From an uncultured Pseudomonadota bacterium (lineage in GTDB: Bacteria; Pseudomonadota; Gammaproteobacteria; Steroidobacterales; Steroidobacteraceae): a stretch of DNA of 64,000 bases. The translations under genes were made by a program, and so were the position numbers. Below the pieces are notes generated by a model. It was not told where the DNA came from. It saw only the letters and a program-made list of their open reading frames with translations, and made no database searches. Numbering within the stretch: position 1 is the first letter of the stretch; each line of letters opens with the position of its first letter. The DNA lies in contig CAISEB010000020.1 in NCBI GenBank assembly GCA_903884235.1, positions 186,001 to 250,000 of the forward strand, in the 5' to 3' direction. Shown piece after piece: positions 37,499 to 62,916 of the stretch.

Positions 37499-40400
37499 GT
37501 GCTGTCCCGCTACTTCATCGACCGACCGGTCTTCGCCTGGGTGATCGCGATCCTGGTCACGCTCGCCGGCGCGGTCGCGCTCAGCCGCCTGCCGATCGCC
37601 CGCTACCCCACGATCGCGCCGCCGACCATCTCGGTGAATGCGACCTATCCCGGCGCGTCGGCCAAGGTCGCCGAGGAATCGGTGACCCAGATCGTCGAGC
37701 AGGGCATGACCGGCCTCGACGGCCTGCTCTACATGTCCTCGAACAGCACCGCCTCCGGTGCATCGTCGGTCCAGCTCACCTTCGAGAGCGGCACGAATCC
37801 GGACATCGCACAGGTCCAGGTCCAGAACAAGCTGCAGTCCGTCACGCCGCTGCTGCCGGCCATCGTGCAGCAGAACGGCGTCAACGTCAGCAAGGCCGGC
37901 AGCGCCTTCCTGATGATCGTCGGTCTCGTATCCGAGACGTCGAACCTGAACAAGACGGATCTCGCGGACTTCGCCGCGACGCACCTGGTCGAGCCGCTCA
38001 GCCGGGTGAACGGGGTCGGCGACGTGCACCTGTTCCAGGCCAAGTATGCGATGCGGGTCTGGCTCGACGCGGACAAGCTGAAGGCCTACTCGCTGACGCC
38101 CGGCGACATCACCGCGGCGATCAACGCCCAGAACGCACAGGTCTCGCTCGGTGCGCTGGGTGGCACGCCGGCGGTGCCGGGCCAGCAGTTGACCGCGACG
38201 ATCACCTCGCAAGGACGCCTGCACACGCCGGAGGAATTCCGCAACATCGTCGTGCGCGCGATGCCAACCGGCCAGATCCTGCGCCTCGGGGACGTCGCCC
38301 GCGTGGAGATCGGCGCGGAGGCGTACAGCTCCGTGTCGAGGTTCAACGGACAACCCGCGGTCGGCATGGCCATCAGCCTGTCCTCGACCGCGAATGCGCT
38401 GCAGACCGCGAAGGACGTCCAGGCCCTGATCGAGGACATGAAGCCGACGTTCCCCGCGGGCGTGAAGCTCGTCTTCCCGTTCGACACGACGCCGTTCGTG
38501 CGCGCTTCGATCCGCGACGTGCTCAAGACCCTGGGCGAGGCGATCGTCCTGGTCTTCCTCGTCATGTACCTGTTCCTGCAGAACATCCGCGCCACGCTCA
38601 TTCCAACGATCGCCGTGCCGATCGTGCTGTTCGGCACCTTCGGCGTGCTGGCGACGCTCGGCTACTCCGTCAACATGCTGACGATGTTCGCGATGGTGCT
38701 CGCGATCGGACTGCTGGTGGACGACGCGATCGTCGTGGTCGAGAACGTCGAGCGCGTCATGAGCGAGGAGGGCCTCTCACCCCTCGAAGCGACGCGAAAG
38801 TCGATGGACCAGATTACCGGCGCCCTCGTCGGCATCGCGGTCGTGCTCGCGGCGGTGTTCCTGCCGATGGCGTTCCTGCAGGGGTCGAGCGGCGGGATCT
38901 ATCACCAATTCTCCGTGACGATCGTCTCGGCGATGGTGTTGTCGGTGTTCGTGGCACTGATCCTGACGCCCGCGCTGTGCGCGACCATCCTCAAGCCCGT
39001 CGCCAAGGGCGGGCACCTGTCCGAACGCGGCTTCTTTGGCCGGTTCAACCTCGCCTTCGATGCCCGCAACCTGCAGTACCAGGGGCTCGTGGGTCGGCTG
39101 ATCGCCCGCGCGCCGCGGACCATCGCCGCCTTCGGTGGCATCACGGTCATCATGCTGCTGTTGTTCTGGCGGCTGCCGACGGCGTTCCTGCCGGGCGAGG
39201 ACCAAGGGTCGTTCTTCACGATCGTCCAGACACCCGTGGGCGCGACCCAGGAGCGTACGCTGAAGACGCTCTCCAAGATCGAGGACTACTACCTCAACCA
39301 GGAGAAGGGCACGATCGACTCGCTGTTCACCGTGCAGGGATTCAGCTTCGGTGGCGGTGGCCAGAATTCCGGCATGGCCTTCATCATGCTGAAGAACTGG
39401 GAGGACCGGACCAAGCCAGAGCAGCAGCTCGGCCCGATCATCAAGCGGGCCTTCGGAGGCCTCGGCCAGATCAAGGACGCGATGGTCATCCCGATCGCGC
39501 CGCCGGCGCTGCCGGAACTCGGTGCCGTCGGTGGCATCACGTTCTACCTGCGTGACGAGAACGGTCAGGGTCACGAGGCGCTGCTCGCGGCCCGCAACGA
39601 GCTGCTCGGCAAGCTCGGCAAGAGCAAGCTGCTGGTCGGCGTCCGCCCGAACGGGCAGGAGGACTCGGCGCAGTTCCGCCTCGACATCGACACCGCGCAC
39701 GCCGCGTCGCTCGGCGTCTCCATCGCCGAGCTCAATAACACGCTGTCGGTCGCCTGGGGCGGCCGCTACATCGACGATTTCATCGACCGCGGCCGGGTCA
39801 AGCGCGTCTACCTGCAGGCCGACGCGCCGTTTCGGATGAACCCCGCGGATTTCGCACGCTGGTCGGTGCGCAACGCCGCCGGTGCGATGGTGCCCGTGAC
39901 CGCATTCGCAACGGGACACTGGACCTTCGGGCCGTCCGAACTGATTCGCTACAACGGCGTGCCGGCCGTGCAGATCAACGGCGACACGGCCCCGGGGGCG
40001 AGCTCCGGCGAGGCGATGGCCGAAGTGCTCCGGCTGGTCGGTGAATTGCCACCGGGGTTCCGGGTCGCGTGGGCCGGCCAGTCCTACGAGGAACGCTCGG
40101 CCGGTTCGCAGCGGCCAGCACTCTACGCACTGTCGCTGATCGTCATTTTCCTGTGCCTCGCCGCGCTCTACGAGAGCTGGACGATCCCGGCCGCGATCCT
40201 GCTTGCCGTGCCGCTCGGCGTCGTCGGTGCCGTGCTTGCAACCAGCATCCGTGGCCTCGAGAGCGACATCTACTTCCAGGTCGGCATGCTGACGACGATC
40301 GGTCTCGCGAGCAAGAACGCCATCCTGATCGTCGAGTTCGCTGAAGCCCATCGGCGCGATGGAATGGAACTCGTTGCCGCCACGCTTGCAGCGGTGCGCG

Positions 40401-40621
40401 ACCGCCTGCGTCCGATCCTGATGACCTCGCTTGCCTTCGGGCTCGGCGTCACGCCGCTGGCGATCGCGACCGGCGCCGGCGCCGGTGCACAGCGGGCGAT
40501 CGGCACCGGTGTCGTGGGCGGCGTGCTCGCCGGCACGGCGCTCGGGATCGTCTTCATCCCCGTGCTGTACGTGTCGGTGATGCGCCTCGCCGCCGGCCGC
40601 AACAAGACTTCCGTGGTGTGA
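37499..40621 (+). CDS. RND multidrug efflux pump, HAE-1 family (MexB/AcrB-like)
   Basis: A 1040-residue inner-membrane proton-drug antiporter of full family length. Start FIDRPVFAWVIAILVTLAG and motif GLLVDDAIVVVENVERVM contain the conserved aspartate pair of helix 4. Lys940 and Thr equivalents lie in SKNAILIVEFAE. The GTG start is 15 nt after the adaptor gene. Substrates cannot be predicted; relatives export hydrophobic antibiotics, dyes and solvents. Confidence 0.93.
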   Translation: MLSRYFIDRPVFAWVIAILVTLAGAVALSRLPIARYPTIAPPTISVNATYPGASAKVAEESVTQIVEQGMTGLDGLLYMSSNSTASGASSVQLTFESGTNPDIAQVQVQNKLQSVTPLLPAIVQQNGVNVSKAGSAFLMIVGLVSETSNLNKTDLADFAATHLVEPLSRVNGVGDVHLFQAKYAMRVWLDADKLKAYSLTPGDITAAINAQNAQVSLGALGGTPAVPGQQLTATITSQGRLHTPEEFRNIVVRAMPTGQILRLGDVARVEIGAEAYSSVSRFNGQPAVGMAISLSSTANALQTAKDVQALIEDMKPTFPAGVKLVFPFDTTPFVRASIRDVLKTLGEAIVLVFLVMYLFLQNIRATLIPTIAVPIVLFGTFGVLATLGYSVNMLTMFAMVLAIGLLVDDAIVVVENVERVMSEEGLSPLEATRKSMDQITGALVGIAVVLAAVFLPMAFLQGSSGGIYHQFSVTIVSAMVLSVFVALILTPALCATILKPVAKGGHLSERGFFGRFNLAFDARNLQYQGLVGRLIARAPRTIAAFGGITVIMLLLFWRLPTAFLPGEDQGSFFTIVQTPVGATQERTLKTLSKIEDYYLNQEKGTIDSLFTVQGFSFGGGGQNSGMAFIMLKNWEDRTKPEQQLGPIIKRAFGGLGQIKDAMVIPIAPPALPELGAVGGITFYLRDENGQGHEALLAARNELLGKLGKSKLLVGVRPNGQEDSAQFRLDIDTAHAASLGVSIAELNNTLSVAWGGRYIDDFIDRGRVKRVYLQADAPFRMNPADFARWSVRNAAGAMVPVTAFATGHWTFGPSELIRYNGVPAVQINGDTAPGASSGEAMAEVLRLVGELPPGFRVAWAGQSYEERSAGSQRPALYALSLIVIFLCLAALYESWTIPAAILLAVPLGVVGAVLATSIRGLESDIYFQVGMLTTIGLASKNAILIVEFAEAHRRDGMELVAATLAAVRDRLRPILMTSLAFGLGVTPLAIATGAGAGAQRAIGTGVVGGVLAGTALGIVFIPVLYVSVMRLAAGRNKTSVV

Positions 40622-40649
40622 CGCGTCGTAACGGCGCTGGAGCTCTCGC

Positions 40650-41105
40650 ATGAACAACGCAACTCGACTTCTCGCGCTCGCCGCCATCGTCCTGGCGTGG
40701 TCCGCGCATGCCGACGCGCCGAAGGCGCCGGCCCCGGCGCTGAAGCCCGCGAAGGTCACGGCGACGGACGCGCGTGCGGCTGTGTTCCAGCGCAAGAGCG
40801 CCGTCCATGAAAACGGCGCGGATGGCCCCACCACGGACGTCAGCCTCCTCAAGTCCCGGGATGGGCGCTTCGAGGCGGGTCTCTACTCGGCGGGCGCATC
40901 GGACCAGCCGATCGAGGCGTACGAGGAGGATGAATTCATGTACTTCCTCGAAGGTGGCGTCACGCTGACCTCCGCCGATGGCACGGTCCTCGAGGTGCAT
41001 GCCGGTGAAGGGGTCGTGATCCCGAAAGGCTGGAAGGGGCGCTGGACGACGCAGGGCTACAAGAAGTACTACGCCACCTACCAGAGCGGGCCGAAAGCGA
41101 AGTAA
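40650..41105 (+). CDS. Secreted cupin-domain protein (DUF861-like)
   Basis: A 151-residue protein with a signal peptide (NNATRLLALAAIVLAWSAHA) and one small beta-barrel of the cupin_3 (EutQ/DUF861-like) type: EEDEFMYFLEGGVTLTSADG and GEGVVIPKGWKGRW are the two conserved cupin motifs. Classical metal-binding His residues are absent. The role is unknown. It lies between the RND pump and fghA, 28 nt and 4 nt away. Confidence 0.65.
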   Translation: MNNATRLLALAAIVLAWSAHADAPKAPAPALKPAKVTATDARAAVFQRKSAVHENGADGPTTDVSLLKSRDGRFEAGLYSAGASDQPIEAYEEDEFMYFLEGGVTLTSADGTVLEVHAGEGVVIPKGWKGRWTTQGYKKYYATYQSGPKAK

Positions 41106-41109
41106 GCCG

Positions 41110-41955
41110 ATGAGCACCGTCGAAACGCTGTCCGAACACGCCTGCTTCGGCGGCCTCCAGGGCTACTACCGTCATGCGTCGAGCGAATGCCGGGCGCCGA
41201 TGCGGTTCTCGGTCTACCAGCCGCCGCAGGCGAAGGGCGGCCCGGTCCCGGTGCTGTACTACCTCGCCGGCCTGACGTGCACCGAGGAAACGTTCGCGAT
41301 CAAGGCGGGCGCGCAACGAATCGCCGCGGAGCTCGGGCTCATGCTCGTCGCGCCCGACACGAGCCCGCGCGAGCGGCTGCCAGGCGATGACGCGTCCTGG
41401 GACTTCGGCCTCGCGGCGGGCTTTTACGTCGATTCGACCGAGGCCCCGTGGTCGGCGCACTACCGGATGTACTCGTACGTCACGCGTGAACTGCCGGCGC
41501 TCGTCGCGGCCCGATTCCCGGCGCGCGCGGATGCACAGGGCATCTTCGGGCACTCGATGGGCGGGCATGGTGCGCTGGTGTGCGGCTTGCGCAATCCGAC
41601 GCTGTTCAGGTCGGTCTCGGCGTTCGCGCCGATTTCGGCGCCGACGGAATGTGCGTGGGGTCGCAAGGCGTTCGCCGGCTACCTCGGCGACGATCGTGCC
41701 GGCTGGGGGGCGTACGACGCGACGCTGCTCGTCGCGCGCCAGCCGCATCCGGGGGCGATCCTGATCGACCAGGGGTCCGCCGACAAGTTCCTCCTCGAGC
41801 AGCAGCTGCTGCCGGAGCGCTTCGAGGCGGCGGCGCGGGCGTCAGGCCAGGCCCTGACGCTGCGGATGCAGCCGGGCTACGACCACGGCTACTTCTTCAT
41901 CCAGAGCTTCATCGCCGACCACCTCGCGCATCACGCGCGATTGCTCGGTTGCTGA
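41110..41955 (+). CDS. fghA: S-formylglutathione hydrolase
   Basis: Esterase-D-type alpha/beta hydrolase of 281 residues that hydrolyses S-formylglutathione to formate and glutathione, the last step of glutathione-dependent formaldehyde detoxification. The nucleophile is in GHSMGGHGA, the Asp in IDQGSADKFL and the His in YDHGYFFI. No glutathione-dependent formaldehyde dehydrogenase (adhC/frmA) is adjacent. Formaldehyde could arise from methylated-amine use, but no link is shown. Its 3' end meets a convergent amidohydrolase 4 nt away. Confidence 0.9.
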   Translation: MSTVETLSEHACFGGLQGYYRHASSECRAPMRFSVYQPPQAKGGPVPVLYYLAGLTCTEETFAIKAGAQRIAAELGLMLVAPDTSPRERLPGDDASWDFGLAAGFYVDSTEAPWSAHYRMYSYVTRELPALVAARFPARADAQGIFGHSMGGHGALVCGLRNPTLFRSVSAFAPISAPTECAWGRKAFAGYLGDDRAGWGAYDATLLVARQPHPGAILIDQGSADKFLLEQQLLPERFEAAARASGQALTLRMQPGYDHGYFFIQSFIADHLAHHARLLGC

Positions 41956-41959
41956 CCCG

Positions 41960-43288
41960 CTACTCGGCGTCGGCGAGGACGGCCCGGCCCTCGCGCTTGT
42001 AGACGACGCCATCCTTCATGACGAAGGAGACGCGACGCATCGCGCTGATGTCCTCGACGGGGTTGCCGGGCACAGCGACGACATCGGCGACCTTGCCGGC
42101 GCTGATGCTGCCCAGGTCCTTGTCGTGACGCAGCAGTTCGGCGGCCCGGATCGTCGCGGCCTGCAGCGTGAACATCGGCGGCATGCCGGCCTGCACCATC
42201 AGCTCGAACTCGTGGCCGTTGTCGCCGTGCGGGTAGACCGCGGCGTCGGTGCCGAACGCGATCTTGACGCCGGCGCGGTACGCACGCCCTGCCGTGCCGA
42301 TGATCTGCGAGCCGATCGCTTCTGCCTTGGTCGCGATCGTCGGCGGGAAGAATCCCGGGACCTTGGCCTTCTCCGCGACGTAGGCCCCGGCGCTGATGGT
42401 CGGCACGAGCCAGGTGCCGTGCTCCTTCATCAGCCGCAGGTCCTCGTCGTTGAGGAACGTCCCGTGCTCGATCGAGTCGACGCCGCCGACGATGGCGCGC
42501 CGGATCGCCTCGGCGCCATGCGCGTGCGCTGCCACGGTGAAGCCGTAGTCGCGCGCCGTCGTGACCACCGCCCGGATCTCCTCGAGCGTCATCTGCGGGT
42601 TGTCGCCGCTCGTGCCCTCGTCGAGCACGCCGCCGGAGGGCATGATCTTGATCAGGTCATCGCCAGCCTTGTAGTGGAGCCGAACCGCCTTCGCGGCATC
42701 CTCCACGCTGTTGACGATCCCGTCCGCGGCGCCAGGGTCGCCCGCAAGGTCGATGCGCATCCCGTTCGTGTCGTCGGCGTGGCCGCCGGACGAGCCGATC
42801 GCGTGGCCCGCGGTGTAGATGCGCGGCCCGGGCACGAGGCCGGAATTGATGGCATTGCGCAGCGCCACGGAGTCCTGCAGCCTGCCATCCCCCATGTGGC
42901 GGACGGTCGTGAATCCTGCGAGCAGCGTGCGCCTGGCGTAGACGGTGGAACGCACCGCGTAGTCGGCGGCGTTCAGGCGGAAGCGCTCACCCGACGCGGC
43001 CGGGCTGAGCTCGTGCGTCATGTGCACGTGCGAATCGATCAGCCCCGGAAGGCAGGTCGAGGTAGACAGGTCGATCACCCGCGCGCCCTCGGGCGCCGAC
43101 GTGCCGGGCGTTACCTGCCGGATCTTGCGGCCGTCCACGACGATGGTCGTCGGACCGAGCAGGGTTCCTGCCTGCGCATCGACCAGGTGGCCACACTGGA
43201 TCGCCGTGGTGGCGGGGGCCGCGGTGCCGGCGAGTGCGCTGGCCGGCAGCGCGACTGCGGCGGCGAGCAGTGCGAAAGTGGTTTGCAT
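41960..43288 (-). CDS. Secreted amidohydrolase (imidazolonepropionase-like dipeptidase group)
   Basis: A 442-residue metal-dependent hydrolase with a signal peptide (MQTTFALLAAAVALPASALA). The metal-binding set is complete: HVH in PGLIDSHVHMTHE, the carboxylated-Lys region LIKIMPSGGVLDEG, HAH in FTVAAHAHG, SIEHGTF and the Asp in AFGTDAAVYPHG. Relatives include Xaa-Pro dipeptidases and arginine-carboxypeptidase-type enzymes such as Sgx9260. ATG 43288 has GGAGA upstream. It differs from the 5' window amidohydrolase, which carries an extra N-terminal domain. Confidence 0.82.
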   Translation of the reverse strand: MQTTFALLAAAVALPASALAGTAAPATTAIQCGHLVDAQAGTLLGPTTIVVDGRKIRQVTPGTSAPEGARVIDLSTSTCLPGLIDSHVHMTHELSPAASGERFRLNAADYAVRSTVYARRTLLAGFTTVRHMGDGRLQDSVALRNAINSGLVPGPRIYTAGHAIGSSGGHADDTNGMRIDLAGDPGAADGIVNSVEDAAKAVRLHYKAGDDLIKIMPSGGVLDEGTSGDNPQMTLEEIRAVVTTARDYGFTVAAHAHGAEAIRRAIVGGVDSIEHGTFLNDEDLRLMKEHGTWLVPTISAGAYVAEKAKVPGFFPPTIATKAEAIGSQIIGTAGRAYRAGVKIAFGTDAAVYPHGDNGHEFELMVQAGMPPMFTLQAATIRAAELLRHDKDLGSISAGKVADVVAVPGNPVEDISAMRRVSFVMKDGVVYKREGRAVLADAE

Positions 43289-43362: not shown

Positions 43363-43782
43363 TCAACGCAAGCGCTCGACGATGCCGGCCTCGGCCCGGG
43401 CCAGCGTCTGGATCCTCCATTCGCCCCGTTCCCTGACCAGCGTGAGCGTGACCGGCACGACACCACCGGAGTCGCTGCGGACCTCGCCCTCGAGGCGCCC
43501 GGTGTCGTTCTTGATTTCGCGGCTCGACCAGTGGGTGGAGGCGCAGTGGGCGAGCGGCCCCGAGCCGATGAATTCGACGAGCGCGGCGTCGCTGGCATGC
43601 GCACGAAAGTCCTCGGACAGGTAGACGCGAGCCGCGACCAGGTCCTGGCGCTTCACCGCGGCGAAGAAGCCATCCGCGCACTCCGTGAGCCCGAGCGTGA
43701 AGTAGAGGACGCTGCCGACCAGCCCGCCGACACACGACCCCACTCCGAGGAGCGCGAGGATGACGATCCACATCCGCTTCAT
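43363..43782 (-). CDS. Membrane-anchored hypothetical protein
   Basis: A 139-residue protein with an N-terminal transmembrane segment (MWIVILALLGVGSCVGG) and a soluble domain resembling NTF2-like/DUF4019-type folds (ADGFFAAVKRQDLVAARVYL, with a final VTLTLVRERGEWRIQTL). No function is known. It is 74 nt upstream of the amidohydrolase on the same strand. Confidence 0.55.
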   Translation of the reverse strand: MKRMWIVILALLGVGSCVGGLVGSVLYFTLGLTECADGFFAAVKRQDLVAARVYLSEDFRAHASDAALVEFIGSGPLAHCASTHWSSREIKNDTGRLEGEVRSDSGGVVPVTLTLVRERGEWRIQTLARAEAGIVERLR

Positions 43783-43853: not shown

Positions 43854-44186
43854 TCAGGCGTCCAGGTGCTGGCCTGGGCGGCCGGGCGACGACTCCCGGC
43901 GAACCGTCGACGGCACGGCTTCGCCTGTCGTTGGGTCGATGGACTCGGGTCGCGCGAGGGCGTAACCGAGCAGCTCAACTCGGTCCCGCGCATCGAGCAG
44001 GCGCTGCAATCGCGCGCGTTCAGCAGGGCGCGGACCCGCCCCGCCCCGCCTCACGCGACATGACGGCACATCCGCGCGAAGCCCTGCATCGGAACGTGAT
44101 TCGAGGTTGCCGCGGACCGCGGCGGGATCGACAGTGTCATGCGCACTCCCCGTGTCATGGCGTTGGAACGGAAGTCCCGAGGTCAC
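43854..44186 (-). CDS. Small hypothetical ORF downstream of the cobalamin riboswitch
   Basis: The reading frame is 110 codons from ATG 44186, but only the second half looks protein-like: LQRLLDARDRVELLGYALAR followed by PESIDPTTGEAVPS. A GTG near 44066 would give about 70 residues. A second short frame starting at ATG 44137, with a good GGGGAG site, stops after 29 codons. No family is recognised. It matters because it is the first substantial frame after the riboswitch in its direction; it may be a real small protein or the relic of a B12-controlled gene. Confidence 0.3.
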   Translation of the reverse strand: MTSGLPFQRHDTGSAHDTVDPAAVRGNLESRSDAGLRADVPSCRVRRGGAGPRPAERARLQRLLDARDRVELLGYALARPESIDPTTGEAVPSTVRRESSPGRPGQHLDA

Positions 44187-44287
44187 GCGGGGGAGGGTCG
44201 GCGAGGGGCGAGAGTGCGCGGACGGACGTCGCCGGCACGGTCACCACGCGCGATCGCCCACCGCGATCGATCAGGGCACACGTCACG

Positions 44288-44469
44288 GGCTGGTTTCCGG
44301 GCTCTGGAGCGATCCGGTTTCACCGGATCGGTTCGGCACCTTCCCGGCTCCCGAGGGGGACCCGGTGGTCTGTCGCCGAACTCATCACTCCACTACCGTT
44401 GCGGGGGCAGCGCCGGCATCAGACCGGCTTCCCAATTATCCGGTCCGACTCGGTCGGTCCGGCACCTGC
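44288..44469 (-). promoter_or_regulatory. Cobalamin (adenosylcobalamin-type) riboswitch
   Basis: Read on the minus strand, the segment has the ordered signature of the Rfam cobalamin element: a 5' GCAGGTGCCGG arm, GGGAAGCCGGT, the GCTGCCCCCGCAAC core (44410-44397), a later GGGAAGGTGCCG and the 3' GAGCCCGGAAACCAGCC closure (44304-44288). The paired hairpin GATCCGGTGAAACCGGATC lies in between. It points toward lower coordinates and begins about 50 nt after the bchO stop. The next frame is the small hypothetical ORF at 43854-44186. B12 binding would normally repress the downstream gene. Confidence 0.88.
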
Positions 44470-44517
44470 GACGATGCCATGGTAGGGCGTCGACCCGCGG
44501 CCCACAAGCCGGTCGCC

Positions 44518-45393
44518 TCAGATGCCGTGCTTGCCGAGGAACCCGAGGATGAGCCCCGCGCAGCGCGCGGCATCTTCCTCGTGCGCGAGATGTCCGAGTG
44601 CCGGCAGCGTCACCGGTTCGACGCGGGGCACGAGCGTCGCGATCTTCCTGAACTCCGCCTCGCCGACCATCCGGTCGCGGGCACCGTGCAGTGCGAGCAG
44701 CGGCACCCGCAGGCCACAGAGGTCACGCTTGAGGGACGCGAGGTCCCAGTCCGCCATCATCGCGAGCGCGCCGGCGACGTGCGCCGGATTCGACGCGAGG
44801 CGGCCATACAGCGCGACGCCATGCGCATCGATGAGCGAACCGGTGCTGTCGACGAGCCGGGACATCACGGCCGGTTCCGCCGCGCGAGCGGCAAGGAAGC
44901 GGGGCACCGCTGCCGTGGACGCGAGCAGGCGGGCGAGGGGAGCAAACACGAGCGCCGGCAGGCCGCGCCACGGCAGCAGCGCGCCGGCCAGGCTCACCAG
45001 TGCCGTGGGCGCGAGCTGGTCGTCGAGCGTCATGCGGATCGCGATCGCCGCGCCCGCGGAATGTCCGACCGCGGCAATCGGCCGCAGACCCATGGCCTCG
45101 AGGAGCCGGCCGAGCGCGGTGGCCATCGCCGGCAACGAGTGGCGGCCGCGCAGGTTGCTCGTGAACGCCTGGCCCGGCAGGTCCGGTGCGATGACCGTGT
45201 AGCGCGAGGCGAGCAGCGGCGCGAGCGTGCGCCACGAGTGCGAGGCCGCACCGGTTCCGTGGATCAGCAGCAGCGCGGGGCCACTGCCCATCACCTGGGC
45301 GTGCCAGCGCGTGCCGTCGACTTCCATGAACTGGCTCGCGTCCCGGTGTGGCCAGTCACGACCGTGCTGCGTCCAGTCCAGGGCCCCGGTCAT
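44518..45393 (-). CDS. bchO: BchO, magnesium-chelatase-associated alpha/beta hydrolase
   Basis: A 291-residue alpha/beta-hydrolase found only with bchI and bchD, thought to assist magnesium insertion into protoporphyrin IX. The nucleophile elbow is GHSAGAAIAIRM; LIHGTGAASHSW forms the oxyanion region and LGHLAHEE carries the His. The ATG overlaps the bchD stop by 4 nt (ATGA), so it is translated from the bchI-bchD-bchO message. It is the last gene of that operon. Confidence 0.92.
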   Translation of the reverse strand: MTGALDWTQHGRDWPHRDASQFMEVDGTRWHAQVMGSGPALLLIHGTGAASHSWRTLAPLLASRYTVIAPDLPGQAFTSNLRGRHSLPAMATALGRLLEAMGLRPIAAVGHSAGAAIAIRMTLDDQLAPTALVSLAGALLPWRGLPALVFAPLARLLASTAAVPRFLAARAAEPAVMSRLVDSTGSLIDAHGVALYGRLASNPAHVAGALAMMADWDLASLKRDLCGLRVPLLALHGARDRMVGEAEFRKIATLVPRVEPVTLPALGHLAHEEDAARCAGLILGFLGKHGI

Positions 45394-47177
45394 CGGCTGC
45401 CGCCGACCAGCTTCGCCGCCTTCGAGAGGGACGCGCCGTCGGCATGGGGCAAGGGCAGGTAGCGTGCATCCATCTCGAGCGCGATGCCGGCCGCGAGCGG
45501 TTGCGGCCGTGGCGAGGTGTCGACGACCAGCGCGGCGACGCGCGTGAGCCGCGCGCGGCGGGCTGCGGCCGTCGCCTCCATCTGTGCCTGCGGGCGGCCC
45601 GGCGTGCCGTCGCGGGCGATGTTGGCGCGCCCGTCCGTGAGCAGCACGATCGTCGGTGTGCCGCCGCGACGCAGGACGCCCTCGGCGAGTTCGACTGCAG
45701 CATCGATCGCGGCCGCGAGTGGCGTCCCGCCACCCCCGGGCAGGCCCGCGAGGCCGCGCTTGGCACGGACCAGCGAACGGGTCGGCGGCAGCAGGACTTG
45801 CGCCCCCCGGCCGCGGAACGCGATCACCGCGACGCGATCGCGGCGCACGTAGCAGTCCGCCAGCAGGAGTTCGACCGCGGCCTTGGCCTCCGCGAGGCGG
45901 TGCAGCGCCGACGATCCTGATGCGTCGACGACGAAGATCGTCGTCGTCTCCGAGCGCTGCTTGTAGCGCGAGATCCGGAAGTCCTCGCTGCGGACCTGGA
46001 TGCGACGGGCAACGCCGCCGCTCGATTCCGTGACGCCGCGCCGCAACCTCTGCCAGGGCGCCGCCGCGCGCAGAGTCTCGATCACGTTCAGGCGCACGCC
46101 ACCGCGCGGCCTGCCGGGCCGCACGCCCGCGGGTCGACCGCGCAGCGTGGACGAGTTGATCGCGCCCACCCGGCCGCTCGTGCGCGAACGCGGCGCGGAC
46201 CCCGCCTTCAACAAGGCGAGCAGGCCGGCCGGGATCGCGGCCTGCGTGGCCTCGAGCACCACGTCCGGCAGCTGCTCGATGGGTTCCTGGGGCTGCTCCG
46301 GTGTGCCATCGGGCGGCGTGTCGCTGTCCTGGGGTGGTGGTTCGGGCGGCGGTGGTGGTGGCTCCGCGTCGGCGGATTCCGGTGCAGCGGGCAGCTGGGT
46401 CGCGCGTGGCGCGAGCACGAGGCGGCCGGCGATCGCCGCGTCCTCGCGCGCGATGCGCGTGCGCCCCGCGAGCGCGGCAGACGCGAGTGCTGCGCGCAGC
46501 GCGAGCAGCACCGCGCGCAACGAATGGACGCCGAGTGCCGCAGATGTCGCGCACAGCGCCTCGACGACGCCGTCATCCGATGCGACGCCCGCGAGGCGTG
46601 CGCGCGCGGCGGCGACGTCCCCGGCCGAGTAGGGCGCCGCGTCCGTGTCGGACAGGCCGAGCGTGCCGAGCTCGATGCGCATGGCGAGGCGCTCGAGCAG
46701 CACGGCGGGCGGGCGCTCGTCGTCCTCGATCCCCTCGTCCAGGGCGATCACGCCGACGCGCGTGGCATCAGTCATCACCACGCCGTCACGCGCAGTCGCG
46801 ACCTCGTGCCAGTCGACCACGGCGCCGATGCGCGCGGCGGTTCCTGCGGAGACCCGCTCGGCCATCGTCAGCAGCACGAAGCCGCCATCGGCTTCGGCGA
46901 GCAGACCGCGCTGCGCGATCGGCCGGCCCGCCTGCAGGGTTGCGGCGAGATCGAGGCCTCCCAGCAGGCGATCGTCGGCGACGTGCAACGGGATGCGCCG
47001 CAGCGGCGTCCCGTCAGGCAGTAGCCTGCGCAGCATCGCGAGCCAGCGATCGCGAACCGGCCCCGCCTGGGCGCGCACGCAGATGCCGCCAAGACCCACG
47101 GGATCGATGGCGGCGAGCACTGCCGCGAGGACCGCTTCGGCCCAGGCCGGCTTCGGCGCGGATGCGTCCAGGCTCAC
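45390..47177 (-). CDS. bchD: Magnesium chelatase subunit D
   Basis: BchD is the AAA+-like platform subunit of Mg-protoporphyrin chelatase. The 595-residue protein has a degenerate AAA+ N-terminal domain (about 1-260), a Pro/acidic linker (PPPPPPEPPPQDSD), and a C-terminal von Willebrand A domain with the MIDAS signature DASGSSALHRL and LLTDGRAN. The GTG start at 47177 overlaps the bchI stop by 4 nt (GTGA), so subunit amounts are probably coupled. It works with BchI, BchH (not in this window) and BchO. Confidence 0.93.
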   Translation of the reverse strand: MSLDASAPKPAWAEAVLAAVLAAIDPVGLGGICVRAQAGPVRDRWLAMLRRLLPDGTPLRRIPLHVADDRLLGGLDLAATLQAGRPIAQRGLLAEADGGFVLLTMAERVSAGTAARIGAVVDWHEVATARDGVVMTDATRVGVIALDEGIEDDERPPAVLLERLAMRIELGTLGLSDTDAAPYSAGDVAAARARLAGVASDDGVVEALCATSAALGVHSLRAVLLALRAALASAALAGRTRIAREDAAIAGRLVLAPRATQLPAAPESADAEPPPPPPEPPPQDSDTPPDGTPEQPQEPIEQLPDVVLEATQAAIPAGLLALLKAGSAPRSRTSGRVGAINSSTLRGRPAGVRPGRPRGGVRLNVIETLRAAAPWQRLRRGVTESSGGVARRIQVRSEDFRISRYKQRSETTTIFVVDASGSSALHRLAEAKAAVELLLADCYVRRDRVAVIAFRGRGAQVLLPPTRSLVRAKRGLAGLPGGGGTPLAAAIDAAVELAEGVLRRGGTPTIVLLTDGRANIARDGTPGRPQAQMEATAAARRARLTRVAALVVDTSPRPQPLAAGIALEMDARYLPLPHADGASLSKAAKLVGGSR

Positions 47178-48199
47178 GAGCCGAACAGTTCGCCCAGGGC
47201 CCGCTCGACGCGCACGCCTGATTCGGCCGCGTCCAGGGGATCGCGGCGCAGCCGGTGACGGAGCGCCGGTGGCGCGATCTGCCGCAGGTGCGCGAGCGTC
47301 ACGGTGTCCGCGCCCTCGAGCGCCGCAATGGCCCGTGCGGCGCGCATCAGCGTCAGCTCGCCGCGCAGCCCATCGGTGCCGAGTCGCATGCACAGTGCCG
47401 CCGATTTCTCGAGGATCTCGTCGGGCACAGCGATGTCCGCGACGCGGTCGCGCGCGCCGAGCACGCGCCGGCGCACGGTCGAGTCCTTGCGGTTCCACTT
47501 CTCGTTGAAGGCAGCCGGATCGCGCTCGAACTCGTCGCGCCGACGAACCACCTCGATGCGGGTGGGCAGGTCCTTCGGGGTCCGTACCTCGACCGAGAGG
47601 CCGAAGCGATCGAGCAGCTGCGGCCGCAGTTCGCCCTCCTCGGGATTGCCACTGCCGATCAGCACGAAGCGTGCGGGATGACGGACGCTGAGTCCCTCGC
47701 GCTCGACCACGTTCTCGCCGGATGCCGCGACGTCGATCAGGAGGTCCACGAGGTGGTCCTCGAGCAGGTTGACCTCGTCGATGTACAGGAAGCCGCGGTT
47801 CGCCTGCGCAAGCAGCCCCGGTTCGAACGCCTTCACGCCCTGCGAGAGCGCCCGTTCGAGATCGAGTGCGCCGACCACCCGGTCTTCGGTCGCGCCGAGC
47901 GGCATGTCGACGACGGGGACCTGCGCGAGACGGGAGCGGGTCGCCTCCGTCGCGGGCCGGGCGCGGCACTCCGCGCACCAGGCGCCCGCGTTGTCCGGGT
48001 CGCAACCATAGCGGCAACCGGCGACGACCTTCATCTTCGGCAGCAGCGCGGCGAGTGCGCGCACGGCGGTCGACTTGCCGGTGCCGCGGTCACCGAATAC
48101 GAGCACGCCGCCGATGGCGGGGTCGACCGCCGCGGCAAGCAGCGCGAGCTTCATCTCTTCCTGGCCGGCGATCGCGGAAAACGGGAATACCTGTCGCAT
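47174..48199 (-). CDS. bchI: Magnesium chelatase subunit I
   Basis: The 341-residue AAA+ ATPase of Mg chelatase. Walker A is FGDRGTGKST, Walker B is GFLYIDEVNLL, sensor 1 lies in VLIGSGNPEEG, and the insert with Cys residues YGCDPDNAGAWCAECR is present. ATG 48199 (MRQVFPFSAIAGQEEM) has GAGGA and AAGAG sites upstream. It opens the bchI-bchD-bchO operon and diverges from the pucBA promoter. Upstream on the minus strand a TTGTATATGTATC stretch could supply its -10 region. Confidence 0.95.
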   Translation of the reverse strand: MRQVFPFSAIAGQEEMKLALLAAAVDPAIGGVLVFGDRGTGKSTAVRALAALLPKMKVVAGCRYGCDPDNAGAWCAECRARPATEATRSRLAQVPVVDMPLGATEDRVVGALDLERALSQGVKAFEPGLLAQANRGFLYIDEVNLLEDHLVDLLIDVAASGENVVEREGLSVRHPARFVLIGSGNPEEGELRPQLLDRFGLSVEVRTPKDLPTRIEVVRRRDEFERDPAAFNEKWNRKDSTVRRRVLGARDRVADIAVPDEILEKSAALCMRLGTDGLRGELTLMRAARAIAALEGADTVTLAHLRQIAPPALRHRLRRDPLDAAESGVRVERALGELFGS

Positions 48200-49310: not shown

Positions 49311-50756
49311 ATGAATCGAATGAGTCGTTCCGTCATGGAAGCCTGGGCGGCACTGGGGCCGCGCTTCCTGCCCTTCGCCGACGCGGCGACGCCAGATCTC
49401 CCGTTGTCGCGCCTACTGCGACTGTCGCTGTTCCAGGTCTCCGTCGGCATGGCGCTCGTGCTGCTGATCGGCACGCTGAACCGGGTGATGATCGTCGAGC
49501 TGGGCGTCTCCGCCTCGCTGGTCGCGATCGTCCTTTCGCTGCCGCTCCTTTTCGCGCCGTTCCGGGCACTCATCGGGTTCCGGTCCGACACGCACCGCTC
49601 CGCCCTCGGCTGGAAGCGCGTGCCGTTCATCTGGAAGGGAACCCTCATCCAGTTCGGCGGGCTGGCGATCATGCCCTTCGCCCTGCTCGTGCTCGCCCGA
49701 CAGGGCAATGCCGCACACGCGCCCGCGTGGATCGGCCAGTTCGGTGCCGCCGTCGCCTTCCTGCTGGTGGGAGCTGGCCTGCACACGACACAGACCGTAG
49801 GACTCGCGCTCGCGACGGATCTCGCGCCGGCCGAGTCCCGGCCCAAGGTCGTCGGCCTGATGTACGTGATGCTGCTCGTCGGCATGATCATCAGCGCCTT
49901 CGTATTCGGCGGCATGCTCGCGGACTTCTCGCACCTGCGCCTCGTCAAGGTCATCCAGGGCGCGGCGGTGGCGACGATCGTGCTGAACTCGATCGCCCTA
50001 TGGAAGCAGGAAACGCGCCGCCCTGGTCGTTTCCAGGCCGAGCCCGACCCGCAGCCGACGACGTTCGGTGATGCCTGGAATACGTTCGCGGGCGCCTCGA
50101 ACGCCGTCCGCCGATTGATCGCGGTCGGCCTCGGGACCATGGCGTTCAGCATGGAGGACGTGCTCCTCGAGCCCTACGGCGGCCAGGTCCTGCACCTGAC
50201 GGTCGGTTCCACGACCAAGCTCACGGCGACGCTGGCGATCGGCGGCCTGTTCGGATTCGGCCTGGCTGCGCGGGTGCTCAGCCGCGGATTCGATCCGTTC
50301 CGGATGGCGAGCCTTGGCGCCATGGTGGGCATCCCGGCGTTCCTGCTCGTGATCCTCGCCGCGCCGTACGGCCAGCCGGTCATGTTCGCGCTCGGCACGC
50401 TCCTGATCGGCTTTGGCGGCGGCCTGTTCGGGCACGGAACGCTGACCGCCACGATGAATCTCGCGCCCGAGAGCCAGACGGGTCTCGCACTTGGCGCCTG
50501 GGGCGCAGTCCAGGCTTCCGCGGCGGGGATCGCGGTCGCCCTCGGAGGCATCCTGCGGGACCTGGTTGCCGGTTTCGCCTCGCACGACGCGTTTGGCGCC
50601 GCGCTCTCTGGGCCCGCGACAGGCTACATGTTCGTCTACGCCCTCGAGATCGGGCTGATGATCGCGACGATTCTGACGATGGTCCCGCTTCTGCGACGAG
50701 ACGCCGTAGCGCCCGTGGAGGAGTATTCCGACACGGCATGGTGGGCAGTCCGATGA
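49311..50756 (+). CDS. pucC: PucC/LhaA-family antenna assembly protein
   Basis: A 481-residue MFS-like membrane protein of the PucC (BCH2) family needed for light-harvesting complex assembly. Signatures include LFQVSVGMALVLLIGTLNRV, FRALIGFRSDTHRSALGWKR and AFSMEDVLLEPYGGQVL. Position right after pucBA favours PucC over LhaA. ATG 49311 is used; ATG 49335 is in frame. It overlaps no gene and is followed by crtI after 22 nt. Confidence 0.9.
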   Translation: MNRMSRSVMEAWAALGPRFLPFADAATPDLPLSRLLRLSLFQVSVGMALVLLIGTLNRVMIVELGVSASLVAIVLSLPLLFAPFRALIGFRSDTHRSALGWKRVPFIWKGTLIQFGGLAIMPFALLVLARQGNAAHAPAWIGQFGAAVAFLLVGAGLHTTQTVGLALATDLAPAESRPKVVGLMYVMLLVGMIISAFVFGGMLADFSHLRLVKVIQGAAVATIVLNSIALWKQETRRPGRFQAEPDPQPTTFGDAWNTFAGASNAVRRLIAVGLGTMAFSMEDVLLEPYGGQVLHLTVGSTTKLTATLAIGGLFGFGLAARVLSRGFDPFRMASLGAMVGIPAFLLVILAAPYGQPVMFALGTLLIGFGGGLFGHGTLTATMNLAPESQTGLALGAWGAVQASAAGIAVALGGILRDLVAGFASHDAFGAALSGPATGYMFVYALEIGLMIATILTMVPLLRRDAVAPVEEYSDTAWWAVR

Positions 50757-50778
50757 GCCCGAGCTGAGCCACGCGAAC

Positions 50779-52302
50779 ATGGATGCGACGACGGCCCCCC
50801 GCAACCTTCCGGGACGCACGACCTCCCGCCGCGAGGCGCACGCGGTCGTGATCGGTTCGGGCTTCGGGGGCCTTGCGGCCGCCGTCCGGCTCGGCGCGCG
50901 AGGCTATCGGGTCACGGTGCTCGAGGGACTGGACGCCCCCGGCGGCCGCGCGTACGTGCACCACCAGGACGGCTTCAAGTTCGATGCCGGTCCCACGATC
51001 ATCACGGCACCGTTCCTGCTCGAGGAGCTGTGGCGCCTCGCCGGTCGCCAGCTCTCGGACGACATCGACCTCAGGCCGCTGATGCCGTTCTACCGGCTGA
51101 TGTTCCACGATGGCGAATCCATCGACTGGAGCAACGACCTGGATGCGATGCGCCGCGAGCTCACGCGGATCGCGCCCGGCGACGTTGCCGGATACGAGCG
51201 CTTCATGCACATGAGCGAGGCGATCTACCGCGTAGGCTTCCAGCAACTCGGTCACACGCCATTCGGCTCGTGGCTGGACATGGCGAAGGTGGCGCCCGCG
51301 CTGATTCGCCTGCAGAGCTACCGGACGCTCCACTCGCTGGTGGCGTCGTACGTCAGGCATCCGAAGCTGCGATTCGCGCTCAGCTTCCATCCGCTGTTCG
51401 TCGGTGGCAATCCCTTCACGACGACGGCGGTCTACGGCCTGATCGCGCACCTGGAACGTTCCATGGGCGTGCATTTCGTGATGGGTGGCACGGGGCGCCT
51501 CGTCACGGGACTCACGGATCTCATTGCGTCGCAGGGCAACGAAGTTCGCTGCAAGGCCCCGGTCGAGGCGATCACGGTCAGCGGCCGGCGCGTCACGGGC
51601 GTGCGGCTTGCCTCGGGCACGGAGATCCGCGCCGACGTCGTCGTCTCCAATGCGGATCCCGCGATGACCTATGGCAAGCTCCTGCCGCCGGGCAGCGCGC
51701 GCAGCTGGCTCACGCGCCGCATCCCGGGCTCGCGCTACTCGATGAGCCTGTTCGTATGGTACTTCGGCACCAATCGGGTCTATCCGCAGGTGCCGCACCA
51801 CACGATCCTGGTCGGTCCACGGTACAAGGAGCTGCTCGAGGACATCTTCGAGCGCAAGGTGCTGGCCGAGGACTTCAGCCTGTACCTGCACCGGCCGACC
51901 GCCACCGACCCGTCGCTCGCCCCGCCCGGATGCGACACGTTCTACGTGCTCTCGCCGGTGCCAAACCTCCAGGGAAACGTGGACTGGCGCGAACGAGCCG
52001 AGCCCTACCGGCGCGCGATCGCGTCGGCCCTGTCGGCGCAGCTGCTGCCGGGACTCGAACAGCACGTCGTCAGTTCCCGCGTGACGACGCCGCTCGATTT
52101 CCGCGACCGGCTGCAGTCCCTGCATGGCGCTGCATTCGGGCTCGAGCCGATCCTTCGCCAGAGCGCATGGTTGCGGCCTCACAATCGCAGTGCCGACGTC
52201 GATGGCCTGTACCTCGTCGGCGCAGGGACGCACCCGGGCGCCGGCGTCCCCGGCGTACTGTCGTCGGCGCGCGTGCTGGATCGGGTGGTGCCCGATGTCT
52301 AG
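50779..52302 (+). CDS. crtI: Phytoene desaturase
   Basis: CrtI desaturates phytoene to neurosporene or lycopene at the membrane. The 507-residue protein has an N-terminal FAD-binding Rossmann motif (VVIGSGFGGLAAAVRLGARG), the FDAGPTIITAPF segment and the C-terminal family signature LVGAGTHPGAGVPGVLSSAR. Three or four desaturation steps cannot be told apart from sequence. The stop overlaps crtB by 8 nt, giving a coupled crtI-crtB unit. Confidence 0.94.
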   Translation: MDATTAPRNLPGRTTSRREAHAVVIGSGFGGLAAAVRLGARGYRVTVLEGLDAPGGRAYVHHQDGFKFDAGPTIITAPFLLEELWRLAGRQLSDDIDLRPLMPFYRLMFHDGESIDWSNDLDAMRRELTRIAPGDVAGYERFMHMSEAIYRVGFQQLGHTPFGSWLDMAKVAPALIRLQSYRTLHSLVASYVRHPKLRFALSFHPLFVGGNPFTTTAVYGLIAHLERSMGVHFVMGGTGRLVTGLTDLIASQGNEVRCKAPVEAITVSGRRVTGVRLASGTEIRADVVVSNADPAMTYGKLLPPGSARSWLTRRIPGSRYSMSLFVWYFGTNRVYPQVPHHTILVGPRYKELLEDIFERKVLAEDFSLYLHRPTATDPSLAPPGCDTFYVLSPVPNLQGNVDWRERAEPYRRAIASALSAQLLPGLEQHVVSSRVTTPLDFRDRLQSLHGAAFGLEPILRQSAWLRPHNRSADVDGLYLVGAGTHPGAGVPGVLSSARVLDRVVPDV

Positions 52303-53542
52303 CCTCGAGATCATTCCCGAGCTCGCCGTCGACCAGGAGGAGTGTCGCGAGCTCATGCGCGGCGGCTCCAAGACGTTCTCTGCAGCCTCGCTGCTACTGC
52401 CGGCGGACGTGCGCGTGGCGGCGACTGGCCTGTATGCGTTCTGCCGGCTCGCGGATGATGCCGTCGATCTGGCGGAGGACCCGCGCGGCGCGCTCGGCGC
52501 GTTGCGCCGGCGACTGGACCTGATCTATGCGGGTACTCCAGCGCCGATACCGGCGGACCGGGAGTTTGCACAGGTCGTCGCGCGCTACAGGATCCCGCGT
52601 CCGCTGCCGGAGGCCCTCCTGGAGGGGTTCGAGTGGGACGCCCAGGGCAGGCGCTACGAGACTTACGATGACCTGACGGCATACGGCACCCGGGTTGCCG
52701 GGACCGTCGGCGCGATGATGGCGCTGCTGATGGGTACCGACGACGCGGTCGCGCTGGCGCGCGCCACGGACATGGGCGTCGCGATGCAGTTGACGAACAT
52801 CGCCCGCGACGTGGGTGAGGATGCACGCGCCGGCCGGCTTTACCTGCCGCTCGCATGGCTGCGAGAGGCTGGCATCGATCCGGACGCTCTCGTCGCCAAT
52901 CCCGGCTTCAGCCCCGCGCTGGCCGGCGTGATCGAGCGGCTGCTCGCGGCAGCGGACGTACTCTATGCGCGCGCGGCGGTGGGGATCGACGCGTTGCCGA
53001 CGCGCTACCGCGCGGCGATGCACGCGGCCCGCCTGCTGTACGCGGAGATCGGTCGTGCGGTCGAGCGCCAGGGCCTCGATTCCGTTTCGAGCCGGGCGGT
53101 CGTGGGTTGGGGCGACAAGGCACGCGTGATCGCGAAGGCGATCCGCGCGAGCAGCCGCCGGCATGCGCCGGATGACAGCCCGGCGCTGCCGGCCGCTCAG
53201 TTCCTCGTCACCGCGGCGGCGGGCTGTGGAGCCGCGGCCGTCGCGCGCGAGAGGCCCGCATATCCCTGGCGTCGCCTCGAGCAGCGCCTTGTGTGGACGC
53301 TCGAGCTGTTCGAGCGGCTCGAGCGCAAGGAGCGTGAGGCCGCCCAGCTGCGTCGCGCGCGCGATGCCATCCTCGAGCGCAACGTGGGGAAGGTCATCGA
53401 GCAGGCCTCGCCCGTCGAGGCGATGCACGAGGCGCCGCCGTGGCATCGTGTCGAGGAGCGGATCGCGTGGACGCTAGAACTGTTCGAACGGCTCGAACGC
53501 CACGAGCAGCACGTCGCCGCGTCGGCGTCCGCAGCGCGTTGA
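52295..53542 (+). CDS. crtB: Phytoene synthase with C-terminal repeat extension
   Basis: CrtB condenses two geranylgeranyl diphosphates to phytoene. The catalytic domain (about 10-290) has the first Asp-rich motif in CRLADDAVDLAED and the second in NIARDVGEDARAGRLYLP. At 415 residues the protein exceeds the usual length of about 300-350. The added C terminus holds a 23-residue repeat (324-346 and 382-404) of the form PW-R-x-E-x-R-x-x-WTLELFERLER-x-E, period 58, likely a helical pair. The ATG lies inside the end of crtI. Confidence 0.92.
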   Translation: MSSLEIIPELAVDQEECRELMRGGSKTFSAASLLLPADVRVAATGLYAFCRLADDAVDLAEDPRGALGALRRRLDLIYAGTPAPIPADREFAQVVARYRIPRPLPEALLEGFEWDAQGRRYETYDDLTAYGTRVAGTVGAMMALLMGTDDAVALARATDMGVAMQLTNIARDVGEDARAGRLYLPLAWLREAGIDPDALVANPGFSPALAGVIERLLAAADVLYARAAVGIDALPTRYRAAMHAARLLYAEIGRAVERQGLDSVSSRAVVGWGDKARVIAKAIRASSRRHAPDDSPALPAAQFLVTAAAGCGAAAVARERPAYPWRRLEQRLVWTLELFERLERKEREAAQLRRARDAILERNVGKVIEQASPVEAMHEAPPWHRVEERIAWTLELFERLERHEQHVAASASAAR

Positions 53543-53554
53543 GGTCTGCCCGGT

Positions 53555-54157
53555 TCAGCGAGTCCAGCTGATCTCGAATCGGCAGGCATCCGCGCCGGTC
53601 GCCATGCACGTCGTCTCGCGGACGTGCGCCGCCGGATGGACGAGCACGCCATAGAGTCGCTCGAACGTCTTCGCGTAGTAATCGCATATCGCCGCCGGTG
53701 CATGCTCGCCGCGGCACGCGGGGCAGCCGCGGATCGTCACGAGCACCGGGTGACCGGCCGTGAACTTGCATTCACCGCTGCCGGCAAAGGTCCAGGTGTG
53801 CTTCGAGATGGCCGCGAGCAGCATCCGGCTCGCGAGCCGGGCAGGAGATGCGCGCAGCACGCGCTGTGCGAGCGCCGGGATCCGATGGGCGAGGAGATAG
53901 TCACCGGTGCCGATGCCGGCACCGACCATGACCGCCCGCGCGGCGTCGGTCCCAAGTTCCCGCCGGACACTGCCGTGCAGGGCGATGACATCCCGCTCGG
54001 CCACCATGTGCTCGGGCGGATGCTCGATGACGGAGGCCAGTCCCGCACGACTCAGTACGCCAAGCGTGACCGTCTCCCCGTGCCGGGCGCGCAGGGCCGC
54101 GACCACCTGCAGGATCGCATTCGGTCCGATCCGGGGATCCTGCTGCTCCGCGCTCAT
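53555..54157 (-). CDS. bchJ: BchJ, V4R-domain protein of bacteriochlorophyll synthesis
   Basis: A 200-residue protein with the 4-vinyl-reductase (V4R) domain, once proposed as divinyl reductase and now thought to bind or channel tetrapyrrole intermediates. Conserved Cys residues are visible in VTIRGCPACRGEHAPAAICD and ETTCMATGADACRFEI. ATG 54157 with GGAG 6 nt upstream is preferred; GTG 54163 is in frame. It is the last gene of crtD-crtC-bchJ and is convergent with crtB (12 nt). Confidence 0.88.
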   Translation of the reverse strand: MSAEQQDPRIGPNAILQVVAALRARHGETVTLGVLSRAGLASVIEHPPEHMVAERDVIALHGSVRRELGTDAARAVMVGAGIGTGDYLLAHRIPALAQRVLRASPARLASRMLLAAISKHTWTFAGSGECKFTAGHPVLVTIRGCPACRGEHAPAAICDYYAKTFERLYGVLVHPAAHVRETTCMATGADACRFEISWTR

Positions 54158-54234
54158 CGCCACTCCGGGTCGCGACCGTGCCTGATCGCATCTCCCGCCA
54201 GCATGCCGCAGCCGACGGAAGTCCCGGGTCAGGA

Positions 54235-55200
54235 CTAGCCGAAGCGTCGTCGCCCGCCGAGGCGCGGCATCCGCACCGACAGCATGGTCTGGACGATGCG
54301 CGAACTGAACCGGTCGAGGCAGATGCTCTCATGCACCGCGATCACGGGCTCGCCCCAGAGTTCGCTCGTCACGAGCGAACGCGAATAGAACGGGCCGTCC
54401 TCGAGCGTCGCCGCGACCGACGCGCCGGCGGGCGCGCTCGAGCGGGTTGTCCGATGCACGCCCCAGCGCGAGCGGGGCAGCTCGACATGAGGAGGTGGCT
54501 CGACGCAGGCGAGCTCACCCTGCTCGTTGATGTTGAGTGCGAGTGCACGATCATCGCCGGCGCGAGGGGTGACCTCGTACAGCACCGTCGTGCCTCGTCC
54601 TGCGCGTGCGCGCGACCAGTCCCAGCGCCTGAAGCCCGACTCCAGCGGGCGGACGCCGGCATTCGCATCGACATACGCCTCCCCGTGCCAGCGCAGGTCG
54701 GGGGCGTCGAACTCGACCTCGATGCGGGAATTTGGTGCCATCGGGCACCACACGTGTTCCCCGGCAGGGTCGAGCGTCACGGCATGGTCCGTGACCTGGC
54801 CGGGACGGATTCGCACGGTACCGCGCACGCGCTCGGGCAACGGGGCGGTCCATTCGTCGATGTGCACGACGAGGCTGTCGCCGTCCCAGGCGAGCGAGCT
54901 CGGGCCGACCGACAGGTGATCCGGACCGCGGTCGACCGCGTCGCGTTCGGTCATGGTCCAGTACCGCCGACGCGGACCGTAGAGCGCGACGTTGATCGCG
55001 CAGTGGCGAGCGGGATCGGCCGGGCCTCGTCGCCGGGCCCCCGCGTAATACGGCGAGAACACGCTGCCGACGAACGCGATGATGACGAGGGCATGCTTGC
55101 CGTCGTCGCTGACGGCATCGATGTACCACCAGGCGTAGCCGTCCGGGCCTATCGGCGCGTCGAAGCCGAATCCGCGATCAGCGCGCCGGCCGCCAGCCGT
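54235..55200 (-). CDS. crtC: Carotenoid 1,2-hydratase (hydroxyneurosporene synthase); start unclear
   Basis: CrtC adds water to the 1,2 double bond of neurosporene or lycopene derivatives. Characteristic parts are PDGYAWWYIDAVSDDGKHAL, IAFVGSVFSPYYAGARR, GPSSLAWDGDSLVVHIDEW and the final CLDRFSSRIVQTMLSVRMPR. The N terminus should begin about ten residues before FGFDAPIGPDGY, but no ATG, GTG or TTG occurs in frame within 200 nt upstream; only ACG (55200) and ATA (55152) do. The upper bound is therefore provisional. The 5' part overlaps the end of crtD. Confidence 0.85.
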   Translation of the reverse strand, partial: TAGGRRADRGFGFDAPIGPDGYAWWYIDAVSDDGKHALVIIAFVGSVFSPYYAGARRRGPADPARHCAINVALYGPRRRYWTMTERDAVDRGPDHLSVGPSSLAWDGDSLVVHIDEWTAPLPERVRGTVRIRPGQVTDHAVTLDPAGEHVWCPMAPNSRIEVEFDAPDLRWHGEAYVDANAGVRPLESGFRRWDWSRARAGRGTTVLYEVTPRAGDDRALALNINEQGELACVEPPPHVELPRSRWGVHRTTRSSAPAGASVAATLEDGPFYSRSLVTSELWGEPVIAVHESICLDRFSSRIVQTMLSVRMPRLGGRRRFG

Positions 55201-56651: not shown

Positions 56652-56666
56652 GGGCAATACGACTCG

Positions 56667-56730
56667 TTGACCCTGTTCGGGAATAGTGTCTATAGTTACT
56701 GACGGTTTACAGTGTAACGCAAACGATACA
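56667..56730. promoter_or_regulatory. crtD/crtE divergent promoter with tandem PpsR/CrtJ-type operators
   Basis: Two palindromes lie 8 bp apart: TGT-N12-ACG (56687-56704) and TGT-N12-ACA (56713-56730). Read on the minus strand this is TGT-N12-ACA, 8 bp, CGT-N12-ACA, the same order as at bchC. For crtE, TTGACC (56667-56672) and TATAGT (56691-56696) are 18 bp apart, with the -10 box inside the first palindrome. For crtD a weaker GTTACA/TATAGA pair is seen on the other strand. One repressor could silence both genes. Confidence 0.7.
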
Positions 56731-56749
56731 CGGCTCTCGGGGGTCGGTC

Positions 56750-57619: not shown

Positions 57620-57744
57620 CCTTCTCCGACCGGATTCCGATCAGCTGGCCCGTCGTCGCCGGTCGTGAATGCTGCGTCGCAGCAAATCCTCGAGATCCCG
57701 GCCGATCAGCCGCGGTCGCCCGCAGTCTGCCTTCGGCTCTCCGT

Positions 57745-57788
57745 TGTTCACTTCGGTTGACATTATTGACCGTACTAGTATCTTGACA
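57745..57788 (+). promoter_or_regulatory. bchC promoter with tandem PpsR/CrtJ-type operators
   Basis: TGT-N12-ACA (57745-57762) and CGT-N12-ACA (57771-57788) are 8 bp apart. TTGACA (57757-57762) forms the -35 box and shares its ACA with the upstream palindrome; TATCTT (57779-57784), 16 bp away, sits 8 bases into the second palindrome. This is the same geometry as at puc. It lies 45 nt upstream of bchC. Confidence 0.75.
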
Positions 57789-57833
57789 CTTGAAGCACGG
57801 GGGTCAGGCCGCAAGGCCGAAATAAGAACTCGA

Positions 57834-59818: not shown

Positions 59819-59831
59819 GACCGGAGCCACC

Positions 59832-62827: not shown

Positions 62828-62838
62828 GAGGTTCACGG

Positions 62839-62853: not shown

Positions 62854-62916
62854 TGAGGCAGATGCCGCGCATTGCGTGGTGATTTCGAGAGTCCGAGAGG
62901 TAAGGAGGTTAGGAAA

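Follow-up and report, generated by a model that had tools for sequence, protein, structure and literature searches.

The cobalamin riboswitch in the 64,000-nucleotide stretch of Steroidobacteraceae DNA analysed here (the window) is real and has a conserved predicted small protein, MSRE (so called because the product begins with MSRE), as its probable target via a leader ORF; this kind of arrangement is known, whereas the MSRE target is new. The riboswitch is thus not orphaned, nor is it simply a relic. With a probability of about two in three, the element is a B12-riboswitch relay, in which the small protein would be controlled via the leader ORF and the overlapping MSRE start. To our knowledge, the targets of almost all cobalamin riboswitches are transport, synthesis or B12-independent isozymes; with MSRE behind its leader ORF, this riboswitch would extend the list by a new class of target and, if the relay is true, would show that riboswitch-uORF coupling also occurs naturally outside mycobacteria.

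The cobalamin riboswitch and its surroundings

The Rfam covariance search yielded a full-length match to RF00174 (model positions 1-189) at window positions 44271-44484 on the minus strand, with a score of 90.3 bits (E = 4.9 × 10−21) compared to the gathering score of 31.5 bits that was used as the cutoff. The full cobalamin riboswitch claimed in the initial annotation is thus confirmed, and so is its orientation: the aptamer starts 34 nt past the stop codon of bchO (44518-45393; TIGR03056 match above the cutoff), on the same strand, and is directed away from that gene. Family searches also bore out the claim that no recognisable B12 gene lies downstream, given that no btuB, cob, cbt, metE or nrd-type gene was found behind the riboswitch in the window stretch, and neither is MSRE one of these. 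The window genome contains two cobalamin riboswitches, including this one; the other is located upstream of a btuB-like TonB receptor gene. The features of the locus are as follows.

44502-44507 (−): −35-like hexamer TTGTGG, weak (3 of 6), within the 34-nt gap between bchO and the aptamer
44479-44484 (−): −10-like hexamer TACCAT, at the beginning of the aptamer model
44271-44484 (−): cobalamin riboswitch aptamer (RF00174), 90.3 bits, full length
44250-44268 (−): P13-type hairpin GATCGCGGTGGGCGATCGC, near-invariant across nine genomes, with the core also present in Rieske-type relatives
44144-44155 (−): ribosome-site block ACACGGGGAGTG, conserved in relatives
44051-44140 (−): leader ORF, 29 codons, MTLSIPPRSAATSNHVPMQGFARMCRHVA, intact in the window
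44020-44061 (−): MSRE start frame ATGTCGCGTGAG..., with a stop after 13 codons in the window genome
44038-44047 (−): tandem GGGGC ×2, a frame-shifting 5-bp duplication in MSRE, from direct comparison with L046
43854-44054 (−): shifted MSRE continuation, a 66-aa frame whose GTG start shares GTGA with the leader stop
43911-44012 (−): conserved MSRE core, profile match with E = 9 × 10−4 over profile positions 16-49 of 63
43363-43782 (same strand as the riboswitch): gene for a DUF4864-like protein, DUF4864 match below the cutoff
41960-43288 (same strand as the riboswitch): amidohydrolase gene

The promoter-like boxes were derived from position-wise comparison of the relatives. TTGTGG and the −10-like box form the best hexamer pair, with 17-nt spacing, at a location that is kept in most relatives, and scoring puts TANNNT at the same −10 place in 7 of 9 genomes, with inspection by eye showing it in all nine; a consensus promoter scan at a strict threshold gave no match. 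These putative boxes of the riboswitch's own, whose position agrees among most copies, were counted in favour of the relay.

The bchO-bchD-bchI end of the photosynthesis gene cluster (window 44518-48199 and 49335-64000) directly abuts the riboswitch. In two relatives (G005 and G006), the riboswitch is next to esterase, cupin and RND genes, which in the window are found at 37499-41955. Because these relatives keep the esterase/cupin/RND neighbours, the photosynthesis cluster as well as the amidohydrolase and DUF4864 genes appear to have been inserted or rearranged around the riboswitch.

A leader ORF that overlaps the start of a conserved small protein

The genus set consisted of 15 genomes, the window's included, and eight others carry the riboswitch, the leader and MSRE. 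In the 5' to 3' direction, the element consists of the B12 box ending AAACCAGCC, the P13 hairpin GATCGCGGTGGGCGRTCGC, the block ACACGGGGAGTG, the leader ORF and MSRE. The ACACGGGGAGTG block, slightly varied in two species, is located approximately 90-100 nt past the P13 hairpin and is followed by 2-3 bases and an ATG. The 29-codon frame with a good ribosome site that had been noticed in the window is this leader ORF, located behind GGGGAG. The leader is in frame in all nine genomes, at seven different lengths (60, 66, 75, 90, 93, 108 and 123 nt), each divisible by three. All leader ORFs (19-40 codons) terminate at the same overlap, with C-terminal HVA, RVA or DVA directly before the stop, and in each of the nine genomes this stop overlaps the MSRE start inside the invariant TGTCGCGTGA, such that a uORF with its own ribosome site ends over the next start. 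The sequence of the leader peptide is not conserved, with 9, 8 and 7 substitutions in codon positions 1, 2 and 3 between L041 and L046. Because the frame is kept even though the peptide is not conserved, the constant frame at varying length points, at the level of genome comparison, to translation of the leader and to its coupling with a small protein under selection.

MSRE consists of 57-75 aa and is intact in seven relatives, whereas in the eighth the frame is open to the contig end. In three independent pairs, the substitutions in codons 5-37 of MSRE were distributed as 26/20/52 over positions 1/2/3 (p = 4.5 × 10−5), and this third-position bias is computational evidence of protein-level constraint on MSRE. 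Searches of MSRE against Pfam gave no match, those against NCBIfam one chance-level match only (E = 0.18), and the MSRE profile reached chance level only in PDB (E of about 0.6). Nothing convincing was found with this profile in 217 genomes of the family outside the genus, and nothing at 10−6 in a set of 396 genomes taken from the order. The remaining six genus members that were checked are without the riboswitch-leader-MSRE element, and in three of these (L043, L045 and L051), a BtuF-like gene is present behind a riboswitch instead. Beyond the window genome, the MSRE family is thus limited to eight genomes of one genus, with divergent subgroups, and by these searches MSRE is a previously undescribed predicted small protein. 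The AlphaFold model of the L046 protein, one long helix with a pLDDT of 90.6, carries little weight because the input was one sequence only; for the L047 group, a helix and a weak hairpin were modelled (pLDDT of 70).

For the most part, the initial annotation was right to propose a new small B12-controlled protein, inasmuch as a small protein is conserved across the genus and the conserved core of the 43854-44186 product was found behind the riboswitch in the eight relatives. The product is, however, not the 110-codon frame as such, and decay is possible in the window genome.

Frameshift in the window copy of MSRE

In the window copy, the MSRE frame that opens in TGTCGCGTGA is not continuous. 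Compared to L046, there is, besides the GGGGC duplication, an apparent loss of 1 nt near 44007-44020, so that the net shift is +1. The GTG at 44054 opens precisely the frame that holds the conserved MSRE core (66 codons), and the core was matched with a profile that was built without the window protein. Substitutions in the window core were distributed over positions 1/2/3 as 6/0/13 in the comparison with L041 and as 3/3/10 in the comparison with L046, and the core still looks constrained. The 110-codon GTG frame at 43854-44186 with a protein-like second half is present as originally described, and its second half matches the conserved protein (E = 9 × 10−4); as a product, it holds up only in that it contains the shifted core, but this is so by chance, the real product apparently being the leader and the overlapping ORF. 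The frameshift may reflect a recoded start, a recent gene break or assembly indels, and the functional status of MSRE in the window genome is uncertain.

The same riboswitch subtype before GbcA-like Rieske oxygenases

In the sister-genus genomes G068 and G109, the riboswitch subtype is located upstream of a Rieske oxygenase gene; in G112, the contig ends just past the matching start, and in G016, a 91-aa ORF precedes the Rieske gene. The Rieske gene is the first behind the riboswitch in 58 of 80 loci (L081-L160), among the matches listed, mostly from Mesorhizobium and other Hyphomicrobiales; L061/L077 and L062/L078 are Rieske-type loci as well. The genera with the subtype directly before the Rieske gene include Mesorhizobium, Phyllobacterium, Shinella, Sinorhizobium and others, and all 12 subtype loci checked with Rfam were true cobalamin riboswitches. 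One of the Rieske proteins scored 508 bits with the NCBIfam GbcA model, under the cutoff of 670 bits, and we therefore refer to these proteins as GbcA-like. The subtype together with the GbcA-like Rieske gene is a candidate B12-repressed, B12-independent route of betaine demethylation. No report of this arrangement was found in the literature searched, so that in rhizobia and their relatives the subtype marks an apparently unreported regulon, being located before GbcA-like Rieske oxygenases and once before a homocysteine methyltransferase.

The riboswitch subtype of the Rieske loci in Hyphomicrobiales and the sister genera, AAACCAGCC ... TCGCGGTGGGC, is the same as that of the window, and the start context CACGGGGAGTGnnCATG is identical between the leader ORF and the Rieske-type starts in G109 and G112. 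However, the controlled gene in the Rieske loci is an oxygenase of about 410 aa without a leader ORF, whereas the window genus has the leader and MSRE; profile comparison detected no similarity between MSRE and the Rieske protein (hhalign probability of 0.1).

Small proteins of 84-100 aa with the motif ..EEIFVDWLMSVPAGADLEAAARKQMALIDR.. ('DWLLS') form a second family encoded downstream of this riboswitch subtype, with members in L087 (1480-4117), L128, L158, L117 and L056; the L056 protein has no Pfam match. In L087, a Mesorhizobium operon, the small ORF is followed by a homocysteine S-methyltransferase gene and then the Rieske oxygenase gene. No similarity between MSRE and the 'DWLLS' proteins was detected by profile comparison (hhalign probability of 0.1). 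Paired cobalamin riboswitches were seen in L113 (3413-3617 on the minus strand and 3774-3975 on the plus strand, divergent, about 160 nt apart) and in L117 (opposite strands, 2158-2360 plus and 5222-5430 minus).

The proposed relay and alternative explanations

Under the proposed relay, the aptamer would probably be an OFF switch that hides the leader ribosome site in the presence of cobalamin. At low cobalamin, the leader would be translated, and the ribosome would halt at the leader TGA and restart on the overlapping ATG or GTG in TGTCGCGTGA, producing the 57-75 aa MSRE. For the window copy, the conserved core would be accessible only from the GTG over the leader stop, or else the gene was very recently broken. 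We infer the OFF direction, the termination-reinitiation coupling and the use of GTG from this analysis, and likewise infer the B12 response, the translation and the function of MSRE. In terms of duplex energy, the leader ribosome site paired no more strongly with an upstream strand than shuffled sequence did; this negative result counts against the relay, and the hiding structure is putative.

In Mycobacterium tuberculosis, ppe2 is preceded by a B12 riboswitch and a translated uORF, uPPE2, on which expression of the downstream gene depends (PMC11260477), and as in the window element, the end of the uORF overlaps the beginning of the following ORF, which is in another frame. The ppe2 riboswitch belongs to a mycobacterial class IIb variant, and the overlap ahead of ppe2-cobQ(U) is a 4-nt AUGA (PMC11260477), whereas the window aptamer matches RF00174 over the entire model, the two frames overlap by 11 nt (or by the 4-nt GTGA), and the target is a predicted short protein without an assigned family.

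The locus could also be a dead remnant, in which a riboswitch that once drove a GbcA-like Rieske oxygenase outlived the gene and the short frames are debris. Such an origin would account for the start context that the leader shares with the Rieske genes in G109 and G112, for the broken MSRE frame in the window copy and for the absence of a close GbcA relative in the window genome (39% identity at best). It is, however, unlikely, given that MSRE is conserved with a third-position bias across eight relatives and has no similarity to the Rieske protein by profile comparison, and that the leader frame is retained in 9 of 9 genomes. The alternative reading in the initial annotation, the remains of a lost gene, stands in part: MSRE is frameshifted compared to the eight relatives, and the Rieske gene begins at the leader-start position in sister lineages, but the homologous locus with an intact larger gene was found in other genera only, so that it does not cleanly identify the window copy as an obvious remnant.

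B12-controlled small or antisense RNAs have a precedent in Listeria AspocR or Rli55, and the transcript might similarly act as RNA, with no need for a protein. In five of the eight relatives, MSRE and the gene that follows it converge, and the TGTCGCGTGA block is invariant at the nucleotide level, as would suit such an RNA, but the convergent genes vary among species, the codon-position signal favours a protein and the leader lengths differ by multiples of three only, which together make this explanation improbable. Control of the next same-strand genes, those for the DUF4864-like protein and the amidohydrolase, is more improbable still: the next gene is located 488 nt past the aptamer and no terminator was found in between, yet neither gene is found behind the riboswitch in any relative examined, and the DUF4864 match is under the cutoff and does not denote a B12 function. 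As to how the relay arose, there is a somewhat less than even chance that a genus-specific MSRE, possibly of de novo origin, took over the Rieske-type riboswitch and is a leader-relayed effector of B12 starvation.

Plausible metabolic setting

The MtgBCDE, GbcAB and Bhmt systems of glycine betaine demethylation and methionine synthesis have been described (PMC12478193). The window genome encodes an MtgC-like corrinoid protein, a pterin-binding methyltransferase, a RamA/AcsV-like activase and a BHMT-like protein, a set that resembles the split betaine/methionine system of PMC12478193, and a MetH activation domain was not found in this genome. Given this MtgC-type B12 system and the lack of a MetH activation domain, and given that a B12-independent betaine demethylase-like enzyme and a homocysteine methyltransferase are driven by this riboswitch subtype elsewhere, we advance, as a rather doubtful guess, a role of MSRE as a B12-starvation factor in glycine-betaine/methionine one-carbon metabolism; MSRE belongs to none of the MtgBCDE, GbcAB or Bhmt families, and the connection is by riboswitch subtype only. 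The genes for the MtgC-like corrinoid protein, a DUF1638 protein, the pterin-binding methyltransferase and the RamA/AcsV-like activase are clustered in L281 (6757-12912; G000:C16), and this cluster adjoins sarcosine/dimethylglycine oxidase-like genes.
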